DNA of 32,880 nt, from the NCBI GenBank assembly GCA_937139365.1, contig CAKZPT010000044.1:1-32880 (forward strand). The letters run 5' to 3'. This document shows positions 11,429-32,880 of the stretch, in pieces. The notes below the pieces were generated by a model. The model worked only from the letters and a program-made list of their open reading frames with translations, was not told the DNA's origin and did no database searches. Position 1 is the stretch's first letter. Each line of letters begins with the position of its first letter. The position numbers were made by a program, and so were the translations under genes. Source of the stretch: an uncultured bacterium. GTDB lineage: Bacteria; Verrucomicrobiota; Kiritimatiellia; PWTM01.

Positions 11429-12517
11429 GTGGCATTCATCTTCGTCATCGCCGTCGGCGTCCTGCTGCTGGTCCTCTGGAATGCGGCGGCATGGCCACAA
11501 CTCGGGCCTGCGGCGGAGACGACCCCGGAGGACGTATCCATCCTGATCCCGGCGCGGGACGAGGCGGCGAACATCGTGCCGTGCCTGGAGGCCTTGCGCG
11601 GGCAGGCCGGTGTCCGCGAGATCCTCGTCTACGACGACGAGTCCCGCGACGGCACGCCCGACCAGGTGCGTCGGCTCGCGTCCGGTTGGCCCCGCGTGCG
11701 ACTGATCGGTCCCGAACCGCTTCCGGAGGGCTGGACGGGCAAAACCCATGCCTGCGCGCGATTGGCCGACGCGGCGACGGGCCGATGGCTGCTGTTTCTC
11801 GATGCGGATGCGCGGCTGGCGCGCGACGCCGTCGCGCGCATCCGGGCGGAGGCCGAACGGCGGCAGGCCACGCTGCTCTCCTGCTGGCCGGGCCTGGAGA
11901 TGCATGGCTTCTGGGAACGGGCGCTGATGCCGTTGCTGAACTTCGTCGTGTTCACCCTGTACCCCGCTCCGCTCGCGTTCCGAATGCAACTGCCGTCCCT
12001 GGGCCTCGCCCACGGCGCCTGTGTTCTGTGCCGCCGCGACGCGTACCTCCGGATCGGCGGCCACGCGCGCGTCCGCGGCGAGCTGTTCGAGGACACCGCG
12101 CTGGCGCGGGCGTGGCGGGCGGCGGGGGAAGTCGCCCATTGCGTGGACGGCCAGTCGGCCGTTCGAACGCGAATGTACGATTCGTTCTCCTCGATCTGGC
12201 GCGGCTTCCAAAAGAACATCTATCCCGCCTTTCGTCGCGAGTTGAGTTTCTGGCTGTTCTGGTGGTTCCACGCGGCGGTCTTCGTCGCGCCGTTTGCGGC
12301 GGTCGTCGTCGCCCCCACCGCGGCGGCCTGGGGCGCGGCGGCGTGCGCGTGGGCCGCCCGCGGCCGGCTGGCGAGGCGTTTCCGGCAGCCGGCGTGGTCC
12401 GTGGCCCTTCACCCGCTGGCGGAGGCGCTGATGCTGGCGCTGGCCCTGGTCTCGTGGCATCGATGCCGGACGGGGCATGGGGTCGAATGGAAGGGGCGCA
12501 GGTGGCGTGGGCGGTAA
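11429..12517 (+). CDS. Family 2 glycosyltransferase, carotenoid-type (CruC/CrtQ-like)
   Basis: 362 aa. GTG 11429 has GCTGGGG (11414-11420) eight bases upstream and starts directly with a membrane segment (VAFIFVIAVGVLLLVLW). The GT-A core shows VSILIPARDEAANI, VYDDESRDGT, GWTGKTHACARLA and the DxD-type LFLDADAR, then FEDTALARAW and a WRGFQKN segment. Two or three C-terminal membrane helices (FWLFWWFHAAVFVAPF; PLAEALMLALALV) end in EWKGRRW. GWTGKTHAC and the WKGR ending are typical of GT2 enzymes in carotenoid or hopanoid clusters. Likely job: sugar transfer to the hydroxylated end of a carotenoid, since CrtD-like and CruF-like genes follow in overlapping frames. Exact acceptor and sugar are unknown. 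The 195 bp upstream is GC-rich with only a weak promoter candidate (TTGGCC-N17-TAGGTT, 11357-11385). Confidence 0.75.
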   Translation: MAFIFVIAVGVLLLVLWNAAAWPQLGPAAETTPEDVSILIPARDEAANIVPCLEALRGQAGVREILVYDDESRDGTPDQVRRLASGWPRVRLIGPEPLPEGWTGKTHACARLADAATGRWLLFLDADARLARDAVARIRAEAERRQATLLSCWPGLEMHGFWERALMPLLNFVVFTLYPAPLAFRMQLPSLGLAHGACVLCRRDAYLRIGGHARVRGELFEDTALARAWRAAGEVAHCVDGQSAVRTRMYDSFSSIWRGFQKNIYPAFRRELSFWLFWWFHAAVFVAPFAAVVVAPTAAAWGAAACAWAARGRLARRFRQPAWSVALHPLAEALMLALALVSWHRCRTGHGVEWKGRRWRGR

Positions 12518-13985
12518 CGGCAAAGCCGTTGTCATCGGCGGTGGACTGGGCGGGCTGGCCGTCGCGGCGCGGCTGGCCCGCGCGGGCTGGCGCGTAACGC
12601 TGGTGGAGCAGGGGCCGACCCTTGGCGGCAAGATGAATTTGTGGGAGTGGGACGGCTATCGTTTCGACACCGGCCCCTCGCTGCTGACGATGCCGTGGGT
12701 GTTCGAGGACCTGTTCGCGGCCTGCGGCGAGCGAATGTCGGACCATCTGGAGCTGATCCGGGTCGATCCGCTGGCGGAGTACGTCTTCGACGACGGCGAG
12801 CGGTTCCGGCATACCGCGTCGCTGCCCGAGTGGCTGAGGGCGGTGCGCCGACTCGAGGGCGGGGACGCCTCCGGGTTCTGGGGTTTCATGCACCTCGGCG
12901 CGCGATTGTACGAGCTGTCCCGGGCGACGTTTTTCGTCTCCTCGCCGTTCGAACGTCCGGCGGCCGGCACGGCGCGAAGGACGCTGGCGGCGCGGCCTCC
13001 GCTGCGGCGCGCGTGGGGCAACTACGCGGCCGCGGTGCGCCATTATTTCCGGTCGCCACATCTGCGTCGGATGTACGACCGCTACACGACCTACGTCGGC
13101 TCGTCGCCGTGGCTGGCCCCCGCGACGCTGGCCGTGATTCCGTACCTCGAATGGACCGAAGGTGTGTGGCACGTGCGCGGCGGCATGTACCGCATGGTCG
13201 AGGCGGTCGCACGCCTTTGCGGGCGAGGCGGGGTTGAGCTGCGGACCAACGCTCGCGCCGTCCGCATCGAGCTTCGCGAAGGAAGGGTGGCCGCCGTCGC
13301 GCTGGAGTCCGGCGACCGCCTCGCGGCCGACGTCGTCGTCATGAACGGGGACGCCTCGAGGACCCCGGCGCTTCTGGGCGAGGCCGGCGGCGGCCTGCCG
13401 GAGCGGGAGCGTTCGTTGTCGGGGTTGGTCTTCCTCTTTGCGCTGCGGGACGAGTTGCCCGGCTGTCCCCACCACTCCGTGTTTTTCTCGGCCGACTACC
13501 GGGCGGAGTTCGACGAGCTGTTTGCGCGGCGGACGTTTCCCTCCGACCCGACGGTCTACGTGAACGTGCCCAGCCGGACGGATCGTTCGGTGACGCCGGG
13601 CCGCGGCGAGGTGATGTTCGTGATGGCCAATGCGCCGGCCAACGACGCCGACGCGTGGGACGTGGCGGCGGTGGAGGAGGCCCGCCGGCGCGTGCTCGGC
13701 CGTCTGCAACGTGGCGGATTTCCGGAATTTCGGGAGAAGGTAGCGGCATCCGCGGTCTGGACGCCGCGGGACATGGCGCGACGCTACGACATGCCCGGCG
13801 GCGCGATCTACGGACGCAGCTCGCACGGCTGGCGAGGTGCGTTTCTGCGTCCGCCGAACCGCAACCGGGCTGTCGGCGGTCTGTACCACGTCGGCGGCAG
13901 CACCCATCCGGGGGGAGGTACGCCGACGGTGCTGCTGTCGGCGCGGATCGTCGCGGAGCTGGTCGAACGCTATGAACGCGCGTGA
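12507..13985 (+). CDS. Carotenoid desaturase/oxidase of the CrtI/CrtD superfamily (CrtD-like)
   Basis: 492 aa from GTG 12507, which follows GGAAGGGG (12489-12496) and overlaps the glycosyltransferase stop; ATG 12477 is an alternative. The FAD-binding Rossmann motif VVIGGGLGGLAVAARL is at the very N-terminus, followed by YRFDTGPSLLTMPWVFEDLF typical of CrtI-type enzymes. The C-terminal flavin-binding region reads AFLRPPNRN...GLYHVGGSTHPGGGTPTVLLSA. The GGSTHPGGG form, rather than GASTVPGTG, is what I associate with CrtD/CrtP-type enzymes that act on already hydroxylated or desaturated chains, while the second homologue (16255-17724) looks like the phytoene desaturase. Assignment as 1-hydroxycarotenoid 3,4-desaturase is inference supported by the adjacent CruF-like gene, which it overlaps by 14 bp. 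Confidence 0.8.
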   Translation: MGGNGKAVVIGGGLGGLAVAARLARAGWRVTLVEQGPTLGGKMNLWEWDGYRFDTGPSLLTMPWVFEDLFAACGERMSDHLELIRVDPLAEYVFDDGERFRHTASLPEWLRAVRRLEGGDASGFWGFMHLGARLYELSRATFFVSSPFERPAAGTARRTLAARPPLRRAWGNYAAAVRHYFRSPHLRRMYDRYTTYVGSSPWLAPATLAVIPYLEWTEGVWHVRGGMYRMVEAVARLCGRGGVELRTNARAVRIELREGRVAAVALESGDRLAADVVVMNGDASRTPALLGEAGGGLPERERSLSGLVFLFALRDELPGCPHHSVFFSADYRAEFDELFARRTFPSDPTVYVNVPSRTDRSVTPGRGEVMFVMANAPANDADAWDVAAVEEARRRVLGRLQRGGFPEFREKVAASAVWTPRDMARRYDMPGGAIYGRSSHGWRGAFLRPPNRNRAVGGLYHVGGSTHPGGGTPTVLLSARIVAELVERYERA

Positions 13986-14805
13986 GGTGGGGCTGCGCGC
14001 TCTGGCCGCGGTGGCGGCCCTGTTGGCGGCCGGCGGGACGGCGTCCTACGTCGGGCTGGTGTCGTCGCCGACGGCGGCGGTTCCGTGGATCGCGACGCTG
14101 ACGATCCTGTGCGCCGCGGCGCTGGTGCTGGTCTCGCTACCCGCTGGCGAACGTCGGTGGGCGGCGCTGGCGGGGGTGGGAGGCTTCGCGGCGGAGCTGT
14201 TGGGCGTGCACTTTCATTTTCCGTTCGGCGTGGACTATCGGTACACCGACCGCCTTGCGTTGCAGGTGGCGTCGGTGCCGGTGGCGCTGGCGGGCTGCTG
14301 GGTCATTCTGCTCTGCTATGCGCGCGAGATGGCCGCCGGCGTGGCAGGTTCCCCGTGGTCCGGCGTCGTGGTGCAAGCGGCGTGGATGATGGCGATCGAT
14401 CTCGTCCTCGATCCCGTGGCCACCCGCGTGATGGGGTTGTGGGAGTGGGGCGCTGGCGGGGCGTGGTACGGCGTGCCGTTGAACAATTTCGCCTGGTGGT
14501 TTGCGGTGAGCCTCTGCCTGGCGGCGGTCCAGCGGCCGCCGGCTGGCGCCAACCGGTGGGTGGCCGGCACGGGGCTGGGCACCGTCGCGTTTTTCACGGC
14601 GATCGCGCTGGGACGGGGCATGAGGGGCGCGGCCGCGGTCGGCCTGGCCCTCGTGGGCCTGCATGCGTTGGTCCGCGGCCGTCTCAATCGGCTCCGGGCG
14701 ACCCCAGAAGCCTGTCGATCCGCCGGAAACATGCCTCGAGCGCCTCGGGCGTCGCCGCTCCGTCGTATCGGTGCTCGATCGCGCCGTCCGGACGCAGCAC
14801 CATGA
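13972..14805 (+). CDS. cruF: CruF-like carotenoid 1,2-hydratase (DUF422 family)
   Basis: 277-aa membrane protein with about seven hydrophobic segments. ATG 13972 overlaps the CrtD-like gene by 14 bp. Family hallmarks: AAELLGVHFHFPFGVDYRYT, LDPVATRVMGLWEWG and GVPLNNFAWWF, matching the conserved E..G...PFG.Y.Y, D..LDP.A and GVP..NF.GW pattern of CruF (gamma-carotene 1'-hydroxylase / bisanhydrobacterioruberin hydratase). Reaction: addition of water to the terminal C1-C2 double bond of an acyclic carotenoid end. The last ~40 residues (after LVRGRLNRL) are Arg/Pro-rich and overlap the convergent redoxin gene by 122 bp; the family normally ends near LVRGR, so the tail may be a read-through extension. 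Confidence 0.75.
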   Translation: MNAREVGLRALAAVAALLAAGGTASYVGLVSSPTAAVPWIATLTILCAAALVLVSLPAGERRWAALAGVGGFAAELLGVHFHFPFGVDYRYTDRLALQVASVPVALAGCWVILLCYAREMAAGVAGSPWSGVVVQAAWMMAIDLVLDPVATRVMGLWEWGAGGAWYGVPLNNFAWWFAVSLCLAAVQRPPAGANRWVAGTGLGTVAFFTAIALGRGMRGAAAVGLALVGLHALVRGRLNRLRATPEACRSAGNMPRAPRASPLRRIGARSRRPDAAP

Positions 14806-15193
14806 CGTTCGCTACCCCCGGCCGGCCGCCGTACCTGTCAAAGACCTCGCCGCTCCAGTCGAGCAGGACCGGATGGTCCGGCACGTGGCGGCGGAACATT
14901 GCGCGGATCCAGCCGCGCAGGACCTCCGGAACGCCCTGAAGGCGGGCGACGCCCTCGATCACGACTGCGCCGCGGTAGCGGGCGTAGATCGGCCCGATCC
15001 ACCCCTCGATCTGTTCCGAGCCGCGCCGGTCGGCGAGCACGAGCACGCCCACCCGGGTCCGCGGGAACCGAACGACGTGGAGGCGGCCGAACTGATCGTG
15101 CAGCTCGAACACGACGCCGCGCGGCATCGAGTCCGCGGCCGCGACGAATGCGGCGGCGCCACAGACCGCAGCCGTCCACGTTGGAAATCTCAT
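14684..15193 (-). CDS. Exported redoxin-like protein lacking catalytic cysteines
   Basis: 169 aa, ATG at 15193, with a signal peptide (WTAAVCGAAAFVAAADS). The remainder has the thioredoxin-like layout of YtfJ/redoxin proteins: FELHDQFGRLHVVRF, VGVLVLADRRGSEQIEGW, PVLLDWSGEVFDRYG and VMVLRPDGAIEHRYDG. No CxxC is present at the expected position after the first beta strand (LADRRGSE instead), so it is unlikely to be a classical disulfide enzyme. It sits on the opposite strand, splitting the carotenoid genes into two blocks, and shares a 53-bp divergent promoter region with phytoene synthase. Role unknown. Confidence 0.65.
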   Translation of the reverse strand: MRFPTWTAAVCGAAAFVAAADSMPRGVVFELHDQFGRLHVVRFPRTRVGVLVLADRRGSEQIEGWIGPIYARYRGAVVIEGVARLQGVPEVLRGWIRAMFRRHVPDHPVLLDWSGEVFDRYGGRPGVANVMVLRPDGAIEHRYDGAATPEALEACFRRIDRLLGSPGAD

Positions 15194-15232
15194 GTGGTGG
15201 GGTACATTATGTGTCCAATGGCGGCCCGTAAA
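15181..15232. promoter_or_regulatory. Divergent overlapping promoters, redoxin-like gene / crtB
   Basis: On the + strand TTGGAA (15181-15186), 16 bp, TACATT (15203-15208) faces crtB. On the - strand TTTACG (15227-15232), 15 bp, CATAAT (15206-15211) faces the redoxin-like gene. The two -10 elements overlap, so the two transcription units probably compete or share a regulator. Matches to the sigma-70 consensus are moderate (4-5 of 6); no operator was identified. Confidence 0.4.
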
Positions 15233-15246
15233 GCGCAGGAGCGGTG

Positions 15247-16251
15247 ATGGGGATCAAGACCAACGAAGCGGCCGCCTGGCCGGAGTCGCGTTGGATCGAA
15301 TTCGATGCGCGACTGCGGCGGCGTGCGCTGGGCGCCTCCGATGCCGCTGCATGGTCGTGGATCGTCCGCGCCGCGCGGTGCGTGATGCGTTCGTTCACGA
15401 CGAGTTTTTTCATCGTCAGCCGGTTTCTCCCGCGCGCCAAGCGCGACATGGTCGAGGTGGTGTACGCGGCCGTCCGCCAGCCGGACGAGGTGGTGGACAG
15501 TTTTCCCCTCGACGCCGCCGGCAGGCTGCAGCGGCTGGAGGCGTGGGGCGCCGGTTACGAGACGGCGCGGGCGGCCGGCGGCCTTCGCGCCGCGCTGGCG
15601 GCCGGCGCGCCGTGTTTTCTGGCCGGCTTCGCCGAGGTGATGCGCCGCACCGGCATTCCCGCGGATCACTATCGAGCGTTTCTGCAAGCGATGCGGCAGG
15701 ACGTGCAGCCGCAGCCGTTCTCGACGATGGACGATCTGGTGGATTCGTACGTCTACGGGAGCGCCGTCGTGGTCGGCTATTTTCTCACCCACATCTATGG
15801 CGCGAGCGCGCCGGGTCGATTCGACACGGCTTTGCGGGTCGCGCGCCATCTCGGGATTGCCTTGCAGCTCACGAATTTTGCCCGCGACGTATCGGAGGAT
15901 CTCCAGCGCGGCCGGGTCTATCTCCCGCTGGACATGCTGCACGCCGAGGGGGTGACAGATCCGTTCGCCAGAGACGCGGCGACCAGGGACGGTCTCGGAC
16001 GCGCGGCCCGGCGGCTGGCGGCGGCGGCGGCCGATGGCTACCGGCGTGCCAGCGAAGGGCTGGACGCATTTGCCGCGGACAGCCGCGTGGCGATCCGGGC
16101 CTGCATGGACGTGTACGGCCTGCTGAACCGGCGGATTCTCGAGAGTCGCGACGGCATCGACCGGCGGGAAAGCGTGCCGTTGCGGGAGAAGCTCCGTCCT
16201 CTCCCCATCAGCAAGTACTGGCGCATCCCGCTGGGCTATCTGGGGGCCTGA
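15247..16251 (+). CDS. crtB: Phytoene synthase (squalene/phytoene synthase family)
   Basis: 334 aa. ATG 15247 follows AGGAG (15237-15241) at five bases; GTG 15244 is too close to it. The enzyme condenses two prenyl diphosphates (GGPP to phytoene, or FPP to a C30 dehydrosqualene) at the start of carotenoid synthesis. Visible motifs are the first Asp-rich site QPDEVVDSF (DExxD), the second Asp-rich site NFARDVSEDL followed by GRVYLPLD, and the N-terminal SFTTSFFIVSRFLP. Length is normal for the family. Chain length (C30 or C40) cannot be told from the sequence. The next gene starts 3 bp after the stop, so crtB, crtI and the hydrolase form one unit. Confidence 0.9.
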   Translation: MGIKTNEAAAWPESRWIEFDARLRRRALGASDAAAWSWIVRAARCVMRSFTTSFFIVSRFLPRAKRDMVEVVYAAVRQPDEVVDSFPLDAAGRLQRLEAWGAGYETARAAGGLRAALAAGAPCFLAGFAEVMRRTGIPADHYRAFLQAMRQDVQPQPFSTMDDLVDSYVYGSAVVVGYFLTHIYGASAPGRFDTALRVARHLGIALQLTNFARDVSEDLQRGRVYLPLDMLHAEGVTDPFARDAATRDGLGRAARRLAAAAADGYRRASEGLDAFAADSRVAIRACMDVYGLLNRRILESRDGIDRRESVPLREKLRPLPISKYWRIPLGYLGA

Positions 16252-16254
16252 CCC

Positions 16255-17724
16255 ATGGTCCGACCGCGGCGCGCGGTGATCGTGGGCGGGGGCATGGGCG
16301 GGCTCGCCCTCGCTGCGCGGCTGCGGGCAAACGGCTGGGCGGTTGCCGTGTACGAGGCGGGCCCGCGAACGGGCGGTCGGGCCAACCGGATCGAACGCGA
16401 CGGCTACCGTTTCGACACCGGCCCGACCCTGCTGAACTATCCATGGGTCTTCGAGCAACTGTTCGCGGTGGCCGGACGGCGGCTGGCCGACTACGTCGAG
16501 CTGGCCGAAGTGGATCCCTCGATTCGCTTTATCTGGCCGGATGGCGCGGAACTAACCCTCTCGAGCCGCATCGGCCTCCTTCTTCGCGAGTTCGAACGGT
16601 TCGAGCCTGGCGTCGGACCTCGCGTGATGGCCTTCATGACGGATGCGGAACGCAAATACCGGCTCGCGTTCGATCGCCTGGCGACGCGCAACGCGGACGG
16701 GATCCTGAGCTGGCTCAGGGGCCTGACGCCGGCGGATCTGCTGCGCTCGGCCGTCTGGCGCTCGCTCGACGGCGAACTGCGCCGATGTTTCCGCAGCCCG
16801 CGGCTGCGGCAGGCGCTCGGATCGTACGCGATGTACCTCGGAGGCTCGCCGTGGGACCTGCCGGGCCTGTTCTCGATTCTGCCCTACGGCGAGCTGGCCC
16901 ACGGTCTGTGGCTGCCGAGGGGCGGCATGTACGCCCTGGTGGAAGGCGTCGAGCGGCTCGCCCGCGAACTGGGCGCTGAAATCCATACCAATGCCCGCGT
17001 GGCCCGCATCCGCGTCGCGGGCGGGCGGGCCGAGGGCGTCGAACTTGCCGGCGGTCGGTTCGAGCCGGCGGACGCCGTCGTCTCGAACGTGGACGTGCCG
17101 ACGACGTGGCGCGAGCTGCTCGACCGCGATCGCCGGCCGCCGCGGATGACGCCGGGCGTGGTCACCTTCTACTGGGGGTTGCGCGACTCGATCGGCGGTC
17201 TCGACCACCACACGATTTTTCTGCCGGACAACGTCCGCGCGACCTACGGCGACCTGTTGAGGCGCGGGCGGATCCCCGACCAACTGGCGTTCTATGTCTG
17301 CGTGGCCTCCGCGCGCGATCGCTCGCTGGCGCCGCCCGGCGGATCGACCGTGTTCGCCCTCGTGCCCGTTCCGCGGTTGAGCGAACTGGGGCCGATCGAC
17401 TGGCCGCACGCCACGGCGGACCTGCGGCGGCGGGTGCGGGAGCGCCTGCGCCGCCACGGGGCGGACTTTGACGCCGGCCGGATCGAGGTCGAGGAGGTTT
17501 GGACACCGGAAGTCTGGCGTGCGCGGTACGGCCTGTGGGACGGCTCGGCCTTCGGCGCCGCGCACGGGCTGTTCGAGCTGGGCCCCTTTCGGTCGCCCAA
17601 CCGCGACCCTGATGTGCGCGGGCTCTACTACGTCGGCGCCAGCACGGTGCCAGGCACGGGCGTGCCGCTGGTGACGCTCGGCGCCGCGATGACTGCGGAG
17701 CGGATGCTGGCCGATGCACATTGA
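16255..17724 (+). CDS. crtI: Phytoene desaturase (CrtI/CrtN type)
   Basis: 489 aa, ATG 16255. An FAD-dependent enzyme that introduces double bonds into phytoene or dehydrosqualene. The N-terminal Rossmann motif is VIVGGGMGGLALAARL, followed by GGRANRIERDGYRFDTGPTLLN. The C-terminal substrate/FAD region reads GPFRSPNRDP...GLYYVGASTVPGTGVPLV, the classic form for bacterial phytoene desaturases. It follows crtB by 3 bp and overlaps the hydrolase by 11 bp. It is paralogous to the gene at 12507-13985, but the C-terminal motif differs, so the two probably catalyse successive rather than identical steps. Confidence 0.88.
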   Translation: MVRPRRAVIVGGGMGGLALAARLRANGWAVAVYEAGPRTGGRANRIERDGYRFDTGPTLLNYPWVFEQLFAVAGRRLADYVELAEVDPSIRFIWPDGAELTLSSRIGLLLREFERFEPGVGPRVMAFMTDAERKYRLAFDRLATRNADGILSWLRGLTPADLLRSAVWRSLDGELRRCFRSPRLRQALGSYAMYLGGSPWDLPGLFSILPYGELAHGLWLPRGGMYALVEGVERLARELGAEIHTNARVARIRVAGGRAEGVELAGGRFEPADAVVSNVDVPTTWRELLDRDRRPPRMTPGVVTFYWGLRDSIGGLDHHTIFLPDNVRATYGDLLRRGRIPDQLAFYVCVASARDRSLAPPGGSTVFALVPVPRLSELGPIDWPHATADLRRRVRERLRRHGADFDAGRIEVEEVWTPEVWRARYGLWDGSAFGAAHGLFELGPFRSPNRDPDVRGLYYVGASTVPGTGVPLVTLGAAMTAERMLADAH

Positions 17725-18481
17725 GATCTGGGGAGACGGCCGGCGCCGGTTCCTTGCCGTCCACGGGTGGGGCGGCACCCACCGGGACTTTGCCGCGCTT
17801 GCCGCCAAGGCACCTGCCGACGTGCGGATGGCGGCGGTGGATCTCCCCGGCCACGGGCAGTCCCCGCCACCGGCGCGGTGGGACATCGGTCCCATCGTGG
17901 AGGAGCTCGCGGAGTTGATCGTCGAGGAGGAAGACGGGCCGACGACCCTCATCGGCTTCTGCAGCGGGTCGATCCTGGCGGCCCTGGCGGCCGTCCATGC
18001 CCCGCACCATGTGGCGCGGCTGGTGGCCGTGGAACCCTTCGCCTTTGTCCCGTGGTATTTCCGGTTGTTCACCTTGGGAGGGGTCGGTCGGCGGGCCTAC
18101 GAGGCGGCGTTCCTCAGCCGCGCCGGCCGGCGTCTGGTCAACTTGGTCCTGCGGCGGCGACAGGCCACAGATGCGGATTTCACCGCGGCGTTCGGCGCGC
18201 TGAACGCCGACGTGGCGTTGAACTACATGCGAATGTTCACGCGCATCCGGTTGGAGGACCTCCGACCCGTCGCGGCGCCGGTGGACATTGCGGTGGGCGA
18301 TCGAACCTTCGGCGCCGTCCAGCGGTCCGTCGAAATGTTGCGTTCCCTCTGGCCCGCTGCGCGGGTTCGCCGGCTCGTCGAGGTGGGACATCTGCCGCTG
18401 GTTCGCGGCGCCCGCCAGTTGGCGGCGCTGGCGTTTGGAGGCCGTCCCCGGAGGAGGGAGGGGTCAGGGGGCGCGCGGTAG
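17714..18481 (+). CDS. Alpha/beta hydrolase with Cys at the nucleophile position
   Basis: 255 aa, ATG 17714, overlapping crtI by 11 bp. The alpha/beta-hydrolase fold is shown by FLAVHGWGGTHRDF (oxyanion loop), AAVDLPGHGQS, the nucleophile elbow IGFCSGS, AVGDRTFG (acid) and EVGHLPLV (catalytic His). In the G-x-Nu-x-G motif the nucleophile is Cys83 (codon TGC) instead of the usual Ser. Cys nucleophiles occur in dienelactone-hydrolase-like enzymes, so the protein may still be active. The operon position suggests a role in carotenoid tailoring, such as acyl-ester handling, but this is only inference. The last residues are Arg/Gly-rich and overlap the convergent broken gene by 18 bp. Confidence 0.75.
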   Translation: MHIEIWGDGRRRFLAVHGWGGTHRDFAALAAKAPADVRMAAVDLPGHGQSPPPARWDIGPIVEELAELIVEEEDGPTTLIGFCSGSILAALAAVHAPHHVARLVAVEPFAFVPWYFRLFTLGGVGRRAYEAAFLSRAGRRLVNLVLRRRQATDADFTAAFGALNADVALNYMRMFTRIRLEDLRPVAAPVDIAVGDRTFGAVQRSVEMLRSLWPAARVRRLVEVGHLPLVRGARQLAALAFGGRPRRREGSGGAR

Positions 18482-30412: not shown

Positions 30413-30487
30413 TCCGGTGTAGCGCAGCGGTAGCGCAGGTGACTGTTAATCACTTGGTCGTAGGTTCGAATCCTACCACCGGAGCCA
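30413..30487 (+). tRNA. tRNA-Asn (GTT)
   Basis: A complete cloverleaf can be drawn by eye: acceptor TCCGGTG/CACCGGA, D stem GCGC/GCGC with loop AGCGGTA, anticodon stem GGTGA/TCACT around CTGTTAA (anticodon GTT), a 5-nt variable loop and T arm GTAGG-TTCGAAT-CCTAC. The discriminator is G, and CCA is encoded in the gene (30485-30487). tRNA genes are frequent integration sites, and accessory DNA (a gene-free stretch, IS remnant and CRISPR) lies downstream, but I found no second copy of the tRNA 3' end in the window. Confidence 0.96.
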
Positions 30488-31237
30488 TCGTTATCGGGGC
30501 TCGGGCACGCCCCTCACCTAAGATCGTCACGAACGATGAAGCCTGCGCTCGCCCGCGGATTTAAACTTGGCCTACGTTGGTAAGCGGTCTCCCGCAGGCG
30601 AGGAAAGAGCGGACTAGGGCACGATCGGACGGCTGCGGGGCGAACACGGTCCACGAGCGGCGCTCTTACCCCATGCCCCGCGTGGTCATGAAGGCAGCAA
30701 ACAGGCTGGGGCCGGTAGGGAACCTTCAGCAGTTTCGAGAAGTGTTGCGTTCGGAAGGCGCGCGGCCTGTCTGAAGACTGGCTGAAGAGGAGCCGGATTT
30801 CTCCGATGTGCAGGAAATGAACGAGAGCGCGGTAAACGTTCAGCTAACCGTATGCGTTGTTCAGAAAAGTCCGGGTTACTGCGGCGGACAGGGAGGCGTT
30901 CGAAAAACATGGGCCCAAAAGGGCGAAAAGTTCTTGCGAAAGCAGCGACCGAGGAAGCCGGCTGCTCGGACCGGGACACCAGCGACGGGCAAAGGTCGAT
31001 CGTTCTTCGCCGGCGGAGCGCCGGTGAGGTAGTGTCGACTTGGCGCCAGATTGTGGATGTACCGGTCGCTTGCCGGAATTCGTGGTTCCGCCGCTCTGTC
31101 GGCGCAAAAGCAGCGGCCCATCGCATCGGCATGGCTTTGCATCTTTGGCGGCGAAGCGCCTGAGCCACAGTTGGACCCACCGCGTATCCATCGGGGCCGC
31201 CTAGTGCCAACGCCTTGAGCTCTCCGCCGTCAGCAGT
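30488..31237. other. 750-bp stretch without a supported gene, lower GC, hairpin-rich
   Basis: No reading frame here has the codon use of the neighbouring genes; the longest (174 codons, - strand, 30686-31210) has mixed third positions and no recognisable motif. Inverted repeats include GGGGC/GCCCC (30496-30513), GCCTGCG (30541-30547) with CGCAGGC (30593-30599), GCCC-AAAA-GGGC (30913-30924), AGCAGC (30941-30946) with GCTGCT (30961-30966), CCGGCG-GAG-CGCCGG (31010-31024) and GGCG-GCGAAG-CGCC (31147-31160). Could be a non-coding RNA, a decayed mobile element or plain spacer. No known RNA family recognised. Confidence 0.4.
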
Positions 31238-32164
31238 TCAAGGCGCAGGGTCGGCTTGCGAAGAGGCCGCGGACCCGCGGGACCGACGCAGCCAGGCCTC
31301 GTACATGGCGTCGGCGCGATAGCTAGATCGCACCCATGGGCCCGATTCGCAGGCGGCAAAGCCGCGGCTCAACGCCTCCTCCCTCAGCTCGGCAAATTCT
31401 TCGGGTGTGTAGTAACGTTGCACCGGCAGTTGCCCGCGCGTGGGCTGCAGATACTGGCAGATCGTCAGCAGGTCCACCCCCGCCGCGCGCAAATCGTCCA
31501 TCGCCTGCACGATCTCGTGCCGCTCTTCGCCGAACCCGAGCAGTATGGCGGATTTGATAGCCGAATGCGGGGCCATCTCCCTTGCCATGCGCAAAACGCC
31601 GAGCGACCGGTCATAATCGGCGGTGCGTCGGACGAAGCGCGAAAGACGCCGAACCGTTTCGATGTTGTGCCCATAGACTTCAGGCGCGGCGCCGGCGAGC
31701 GTGGCCACCGAGTCCGGGCGCCCTCGGAAATCGGAGGCCAGTATCTCCACCCGGCAACCCGGCACATGTCGTCGGATAGCCCGCACCGCCTCGGCCATGA
31801 TGGCCGCCCCCCCATCGTGCAGATCATCGCGAGCGGTCATGGTGATCACGGCGTACCGGAGCCCCAAATCCGCCACCGCCCGCGCGACGCGCTCAGGCTC
31901 CTCCGCGTCCACAGGGAGTGGGCGTCCCTTGGTCACCGAGCAAAACCGGCAGTTGCGGGTGCATATGCTGCCCAGCAACATGAAGGTGGCCGTGCGATGT
32001 GTTCCCCAACACTCGTGCCGGTTGGGACATCGCGCCTCTTCACAGACGGTGTTAAGGGCGTGCCGGCGCACGATCCGCCGGACTTCGCTGTTGCCATGGA
32101 CGAGGGGTTTTCGCAGCCAGGCGGGTTTGGGCCCGGCGGGGCGCGGCACGACGGTATCAGTCAA
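31238..32164 (-). CDS. lipA: Lipoyl synthase
   Basis: 308 aa. The start is TTG at 32164 (an in-frame stop lies five codons upstream). A radical-SAM enzyme that inserts two sulfurs into octanoyl groups on E2/GcvH proteins. Visible: auxiliary cluster cysteines C-x4-C-x5-C (CEEARCPNRHEC), the radical-SAM motif CTRNCRFC (C-x3-C-x2-C), the domain motif ILASDFRG, GHNIETVRRL, LLGFGEERHEI, LTICQYLQPT and the C-terminal auxiliary-cluster Ser in GPWVRSSYRAD. The usual VTSVDRDDLPDGG reads ITMTARDDLHDGG here. No lipB is adjacent. A weak promoter (TTGAAG-N16-TACGTT, - strand, 32213-32186) may drive it. Confidence 0.93.
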   Translation of the reverse strand: MTDTVVPRPAGPKPAWLRKPLVHGNSEVRRIVRRHALNTVCEEARCPNRHECWGTHRTATFMLLGSICTRNCRFCSVTKGRPLPVDAEEPERVARAVADLGLRYAVITMTARDDLHDGGAAIMAEAVRAIRRHVPGCRVEILASDFRGRPDSVATLAGAAPEVYGHNIETVRRLSRFVRRTADYDRSLGVLRMAREMAPHSAIKSAILLGFGEERHEIVQAMDDLRAAGVDLLTICQYLQPTRGQLPVQRYYTPEEFAELREEALSRGFAACESGPWVRSSYRADAMYEAWLRRSRGSAASSQADPAP

Positions 32165-32371
32165 GTCGAAAAAAGCTCATGGGGCAACGTACGACCATCT
32201 TCGGAATCTTCAAATATGCGCCGTTCAGCCACGAAGGCCGGGCGGATCCGGTACGTGACGAACATGTGCCTTCCCCGCCAATCGGCAAACACGGCGGGAA
32301 GGGATTGTTGCTTGGTATGGTGGTCAGGGTTTCGTGCGTTATGCACCGAAAGAGGACCGCCCATGAATACG

Positions 32372-32530
32372 ATCCGCCGGCGGTTCTCCTTTTCCAATCC
32401 CTTTAGCCGCCGGGGATCGGTGATCTCCATCCCGCCGTACTTCGCCTTCCAAAGGTTCCCACCGCGAGCCCGTACTTCCGAAGCAGGTCCGCAGCGGTAA
32501 CCCTGCTTCTGCCTCTTTCAATATCCCGGT
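32372..32530 (-). mobile_element. Remnant of an IS3-family transposase OrfA, frameshifted
   Basis: Reading leftward from ~32530, three frames together give the OrfA pattern: ILKEAEAG, then TAADLLRKYGLAVGT, then LWKAKYGGMEITDPRRLKGL followed by EKENRRR. This corresponds to the helix-turn-helix and leucine-zipper start of IS3-family OrfA (…YRWKxKYGGMxxSDxKRLKxLExEN). At least two frameshifts break it; sequence left of ~32372 no longer matches, and OrfB and terminal inverted repeats are not seen. Its right edge coincides with the start of CRISPR-derived sequence at ~32531. Confidence 0.65.
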
Positions 32531-32550
32531 GACCAGCCGACGCGATCCGG
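32531..32550. repeat. Truncated, degenerate CRISPR repeat
   Basis: This 20-bp stretch matches the right-hand half of the CRISPR repeat except at positions near both edges (CAGCCGACGCGATCCG is identical). The left half of the expected repeat is replaced by IS3-like OrfA sequence. It is separated by 25 bp from the next repeat copy. It is best read as an array-end repeat cut by the insertion or deletion. Confidence 0.55.
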
Positions 32551-32575
32551 ACTGGGCGGCGCCGAGAAGTCGGAC

Positions 32576-32880
32576 GAGTCAGCCCATCACCAGCGAGCCG
32601 ACGCGATCCGCCGAGGCCGGCACGGCGAATGTTGTTCTGGGGTACACGTGTCAGTCGATCATTAGCGAGCCGACGCGATCCGCATCATGCCGCACCCAAA
32701 TGCATTTCTGGACAACCCAGTGTCAGTCGATCATTAGCGAGCCGACGCGATCCGCGCCATCCACGCCGCCAGCGTAGTCCAGCAGATCGTCGTGTCAGTC
32801 GATCATTAGCGAGCCGACGCGATCCGCCACCGCCGATGGCCGCAGATACTGGCTCCTTCCGGTGTCAGTCGATCATTAGC
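32576..32880 (-). CRISPR. CRISPR array, degenerate (leader-distal) end, continues beyond the window
   Basis: A 36-bp repeat (+ strand GTGTCAGTCGATCATTAG, then CGAGCCGACGCGATCCGC) occurs identically at 32648-32683, 32720-32755 and 32792-32827. It occurs with five mismatches at 32576-32611 and as a 19-bp stub at 32862-32880 where the window ends. Spacers are unique and 36, 36, 36 and 34 bp long. The most degenerate copies are at the left, and in them the + strand left half is the altered part, as expected for the 3' side of terminal repeats if the array is transcribed right to left. Leader and cas genes should therefore be to the right. Type cannot be assigned from the repeat alone. Confidence 0.9.

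Follow-up and report, generated by a model that had tools for sequence, protein, structure and literature searches.

The trailer end of a CRISPR array in an uncultured Kiritimatiellia bacterium, with repeats of a family tied to cas12b loci, very probably belongs to a type V-B system

Background

In type V-B CRISPR systems, the tracrRNA is positioned between Cas12b and the array, and the PAMs of Cas12b are T-rich (PMC6342934). In the phylum studied here (Verrucomicrobiota), three related V-B loci, L153 (genome G269), L165 (G224) and L170 (G416), have minus-strand cas genes to the right of the array, in which a cas4-cas1 fusion is followed by Cas12b. PADLOC identified the Cas4-Cas1 fusion in the three loci, Cas2 in L165, and Cas12b in L153 and in L154, the second of the two contigs (with L165) over which the G224 effector is split. 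The V-B system of Alicyclobacillus acidoterrestris (AacCas12b, PDB 5u30/5wqe) resembles the array described here in having a 36-bp repeat that ends in GxCAC in the crRNA sense. With what we take to be the A. acidoterrestris repeat, the similarity was weak when gaps were allowed (p about 0.007 by shuffling), and the ungapped identity of 14/36 was at chance level, placing it in a different branch of V-B repeats.

Results and Discussion

The window, that is, the whole stretch of DNA analysed (32,880 nucleotides), is the complete contig C44 of a 2.82 Mb MAG of 117 contigs and 96.95% completeness, and it ends inside the array at base 32880. The repeat unit (36 bp; GTGTCAGTCGATCATTAGCGAGCCGACGCGATCCGC on the plus strand) is present in three exact copies, R1 (32648-32683; GCGGATCGCGTCGGCTCGCTAATGATCGACTGACAC in the crRNA sense), R2 (32720-32755) and R3 (32792-32827). 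They are flanked by a degenerate terminal copy at the trailer end, R0 (32576-32611, 31/36), and by R4 (32862-32880), which the end of C44 cuts after the first 19 nt (plus strand). Between them lie the spacers S0 (32612-32647), S1 (32684-32719) and S2 (32756-32791), of 36 nt each, and S3 (32828-32861), of 34 nt; all these elements are assigned to the minus strand, and the spacers are without mutual similarity. A sequence-only reading of this DNA had described three identical 36-bp repeats, one degenerate and one cut copy with spacers of 34-36 bp, and all were found at the positions it gave. To these we add the oldest copy, strongly eroded (about 32515-32550, minus strand, 23/36), which retains an exact 15-mer, AGCCGACGCGATCCG, at 32535-32549 and lies outside the stretch that the sequence-only reading had assigned to the array. 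With identical direct repeats and unique spacers of similar length between them, this is a genuine CRISPR array, and chance cannot account for three perfect 36-mers spaced regularly at 72 bp. In its own genome, the repeat occurred (with up to 3 mismatches) at these array positions only, and a separate search with the two halves yielded the array itself plus chance matches, with no further array, continuing contig or anti-repeat in that genome. Similarly, an Rfam scan for CRISPR repeat families gave no hit, exact pieces of the repeat were absent from the viral contigs and genome contigs searched, and the stability of the repeat hairpin was not above that of shuffled sequences.

Repeat decay is usual at the array end that is away from the leader. 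Both eroded copies (32515-32550 and R0) have lost the left half and retained the right one, and in R0 the mismatches (5/5) fall within the left 16 nt, in the half that is 3' in the crRNA. Because the eroded copies are at the left end and the loss affects the 3' half in the crRNA sense, the leader is placed to the right of the array. Transcription from right to left, with C44 carrying the leader-distal (trailer) end, is supported by these observations. L153, L165 and L170 share this layout, since in the three of them the leftmost repeat has lost its left half to erosion and the minus-strand cas operon follows on the right side. This supports the direction of transcription proposed before, and the presence of cas4-cas1 and cas12b to the right of these arrays bears out the related proposal that leader and cas genes are to be expected beyond base 32880.

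The array was typed by comparing its repeat with those of relatives. The search for Cas12b started from a sequence that we took to be that of AacCas12b, which was confirmed over its full length against PDB 5wqe, 5u34 and 5u30 and led to the NCBIfam family NF033949, used in the scans. Cas12b was above the cut-off in 11 of 388 genomes of the phylum and in 7 of 346 of the class, one of the latter (G006) being from the same family as the genome studied here; G006 is a V-B member, with its Cas12b cut by a contig end. Without gaps, the repeat matched that of G269, present in 27 exact copies in L153, and that of G224 (L165) at 27/36 positions each, a score that 20,000 shuffles never reached, and that of G416 at 19/36 (p 0.0014). 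Accordingly, the repeat is homologous to repeats that adjoin cas12b in G269 and G224. When the 388 phylum genomes were scanned with the motif GTGTCMGTYGATCW-N18-CNNC, several copies were found in only four of them (the genome studied here, G000, plus G224, G269 and G157), and single matches in 5 others, as chance predicts. G224 and G269 have a Cas12b above the cut-off, and G157 displayed a weak Cas12b match (C1:1851965-1852060) no more than about 50 bases away from its repeats. For Cas12b or its remnant to be present in 3/3 multi-copy relatives by chance, the probability is about 4e-5 if genomes are treated as independent. In G157, the region C1:1851965-1852188 contains two GTGTC-type repeats 48 bp apart together with this short match, and it seems to be the relic of a decayed V-B locus.

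Taken as sequence evidence, these comparisons show that the repeat belongs to a family tied to cas12b loci, although a likeness between repeats speaks to the type only indirectly. The hint of type V-B in the sequence-only reading is thus borne out by the 27/36 identity, while its labels of an array of unassigned type and of an effector most likely to be new are not supported: the repeat family is tied to Cas12b loci, and the expected effector would be Cas12b, a known family. The earlier assignment is corrected here to type V-B. We consider it very probable that the array of C44 is of type V-B and is represented here by its trailer end, the leader being beyond 32880, with a tracrRNA and cas genes like those of the homologues located there.

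Like the array of C44, those of L153, L165/L154 and L170 have 36-bp repeats with the end GTGTC(A/C)GT(C/T)GATC(A/T), and in L153, L165 and L170 the repeat unit (about 70-72 bp), the erosion of the left half of the leftmost repeat and the polarity are also the same. The repeats nevertheless differ at 9/36 positions from those of G269 and G224 and at 17/36 from that of G416, and the likeness concerns the array only, as C44 ends before it reaches a leader, a tracrRNA or cas genes. Between array and cas4-1, L153 (5527-5547), L165 (8246-8266) and L170 (6304-6324) carry on the minus strand a conserved tracrRNA-like element, ACGTGTC...CCCTTCRATGGG..T.GCACC....GTCGAT. It includes GTCGAT(CA), the complement of the conserved core of the repeats. 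In L153 and L165 it ends in GTCGATCA and in L170 in GTCGATTT, complementary to the core TGATCGAC, which the repeat of C44 retains. The duplex energy between repeat and region was -46.7 in L153 (shuffled mean -38.1 +/- 2.6) and -44.1 in L165 (shuffled mean -35.2 +/- 2.8), and the effect was weaker in L170. As judged from its conservation and pairing, the element fits a tracrRNA. It was absent from the other loci fetched, other V-B systems included, and also from the window, which stops short of its expected place. The other V-B repeats of the phylum are likewise of 36 bp and adjoin Cas12b, in G099, G270, G049, G203 and G431 (CCGCCTCA...) and in G190 (GTGCCACTC...), but they matched the repeat of C44 at 12-17 of 36 positions, that is, with little or no similarity. 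The V-B repeats of the phylum form at least two groups, and the GTGTC-type repeats with their shared tracrRNA-like element a small V-B sub-group, which may help to type orphan or contig-cut arrays by the repeat alone. Moreover, Cas12b relatives from high-GC uncultured bacteria are possible candidates for nuclease tests.

No cas gene was found among the likely window genes that were scanned, and neither Cas1 nor Cas12b was detected in the 96.95%-complete assembly. By analogy with L153, L165 and L170, a cas4-cas1 fusion is expected to follow past base 32880, and the break inside the array means that the missing genes may be outside the assembly; compositional islands, we presume, tend to drop out in binning. 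The same negative results could nonetheless reflect an orphan or decaying V-B array that has lost cas12b and the adaptation genes and is either unserved or served in trans. This explanation keeps the V-B typing and departs from the preferred one solely in the fate of the cas genes, lost or retained; it has an apparent precedent in G157, with its two repeat copies and short Cas12b remnant, and agrees with the two eroded copies at the trailer end. We regard it as unlikely, although with a weight that is not trivial. Against it, R1-R3 do not differ from one another or from what is visible of R4, as in a maintained array. There is only a slight probability that the missing effector is a strongly divergent or catalytically inactive Cas12b relative using a repeat of the V-B family.

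An array of another CRISPR type with a chance likeness to V-B is suggested by the cas loci of family relatives, which are of types I-C, I-G, III-B and II. The Cas1 loci of these relatives were compared and rejected, their repeats being unrelated. Those that were read in the family, from I-C and type II arrays and from one array of unassigned type, matched the repeat of C44 about as expected by chance (14-15 positions at best), against 27/36 for two V-B repeats, and the multi-copy motif was confined to G000 and genomes with Cas12b or its remnant, so that another type (I-C, II, III-B or I-G) is highly improbable. Finally, an ordinary dispersed or tandem repeat, to which only the small copy number would lend some credit, has a negligible probability in view of the exact 36-bp repeats, the regular unique 34-36-bp spacers, the single genomic locus and the homologous repeats in arrays adjoining cas genes.

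We believe that an ordinary V-B system is the most likely explanation for these results, and its operation can be proposed by analogy with the homologous loci. Transcription would proceed from right to left from the leader beyond base 32880, where the tracrRNA gene, cas2, the cas4-cas1 fusion and cas12b would be found on the same strand. Processing of the array transcript would yield crRNAs that have the conserved 3' repeat end ...TGATCGACTGACAC, whose core TGATCGAC would pair with the anti-repeat core GTCGATCA of the tracrRNA. This dual RNA would guide Cas12b, and invading DNA would be cut beside a T-rich PAM. The data show the array, its polarity and its repeat family, and from the homologues we infer that the missing cas genes and tracrRNA exist and are intact and active.

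With regard to the surroundings of the array, tetranucleotide use of C44 as a whole was consistent with its own genome (0.97 with contig C14). The GC content falls from about 70% to 61-66% directly after a tRNA-Asn gene (30413-30487) and does not recover before the contig end. This stretch includes a second lipoyl synthase gene (lipA; 31241-32164, minus strand), with 62% identity to the copy on C14 and a best match (68%) in G005, from another genus of the family, whereas the C14 copy is closest (74%) to that of G003, from the same genus. Since GC drops after the tRNA-Asn and the second lipA is nearest to that of another genus, the array is probably on an acquired island beside tRNA-Asn (30413-32880), and this location might be the cause of its continuation being unassembled or unbinned. 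No integrase was identified. In family relatives, the neighbourhood of lipA was used to follow the gene order to the right, and no other window gene was near lipA in the regions fetched, so that the gene order gave no indication of what adjoins the array on that side. None of the spacers matched a phage, plasmid or viral contig beyond chance E-values. A match of S3 to the neighbouring lipA (15/16 bases, 31443-31458) was considered as self-targeting and discarded, as it amounted to 20/34 over the full spacer. Elsewhere in the window, positions 12477-18478 hold a carotenoid- or squalene-type cluster in which a squalene/phytoene synthase gene stands between two phytoene-desaturase-like oxidase genes, and genes for a glycosyltransferase and an alpha/beta hydrolase, together with a photolyase-related gene, are located nearby.
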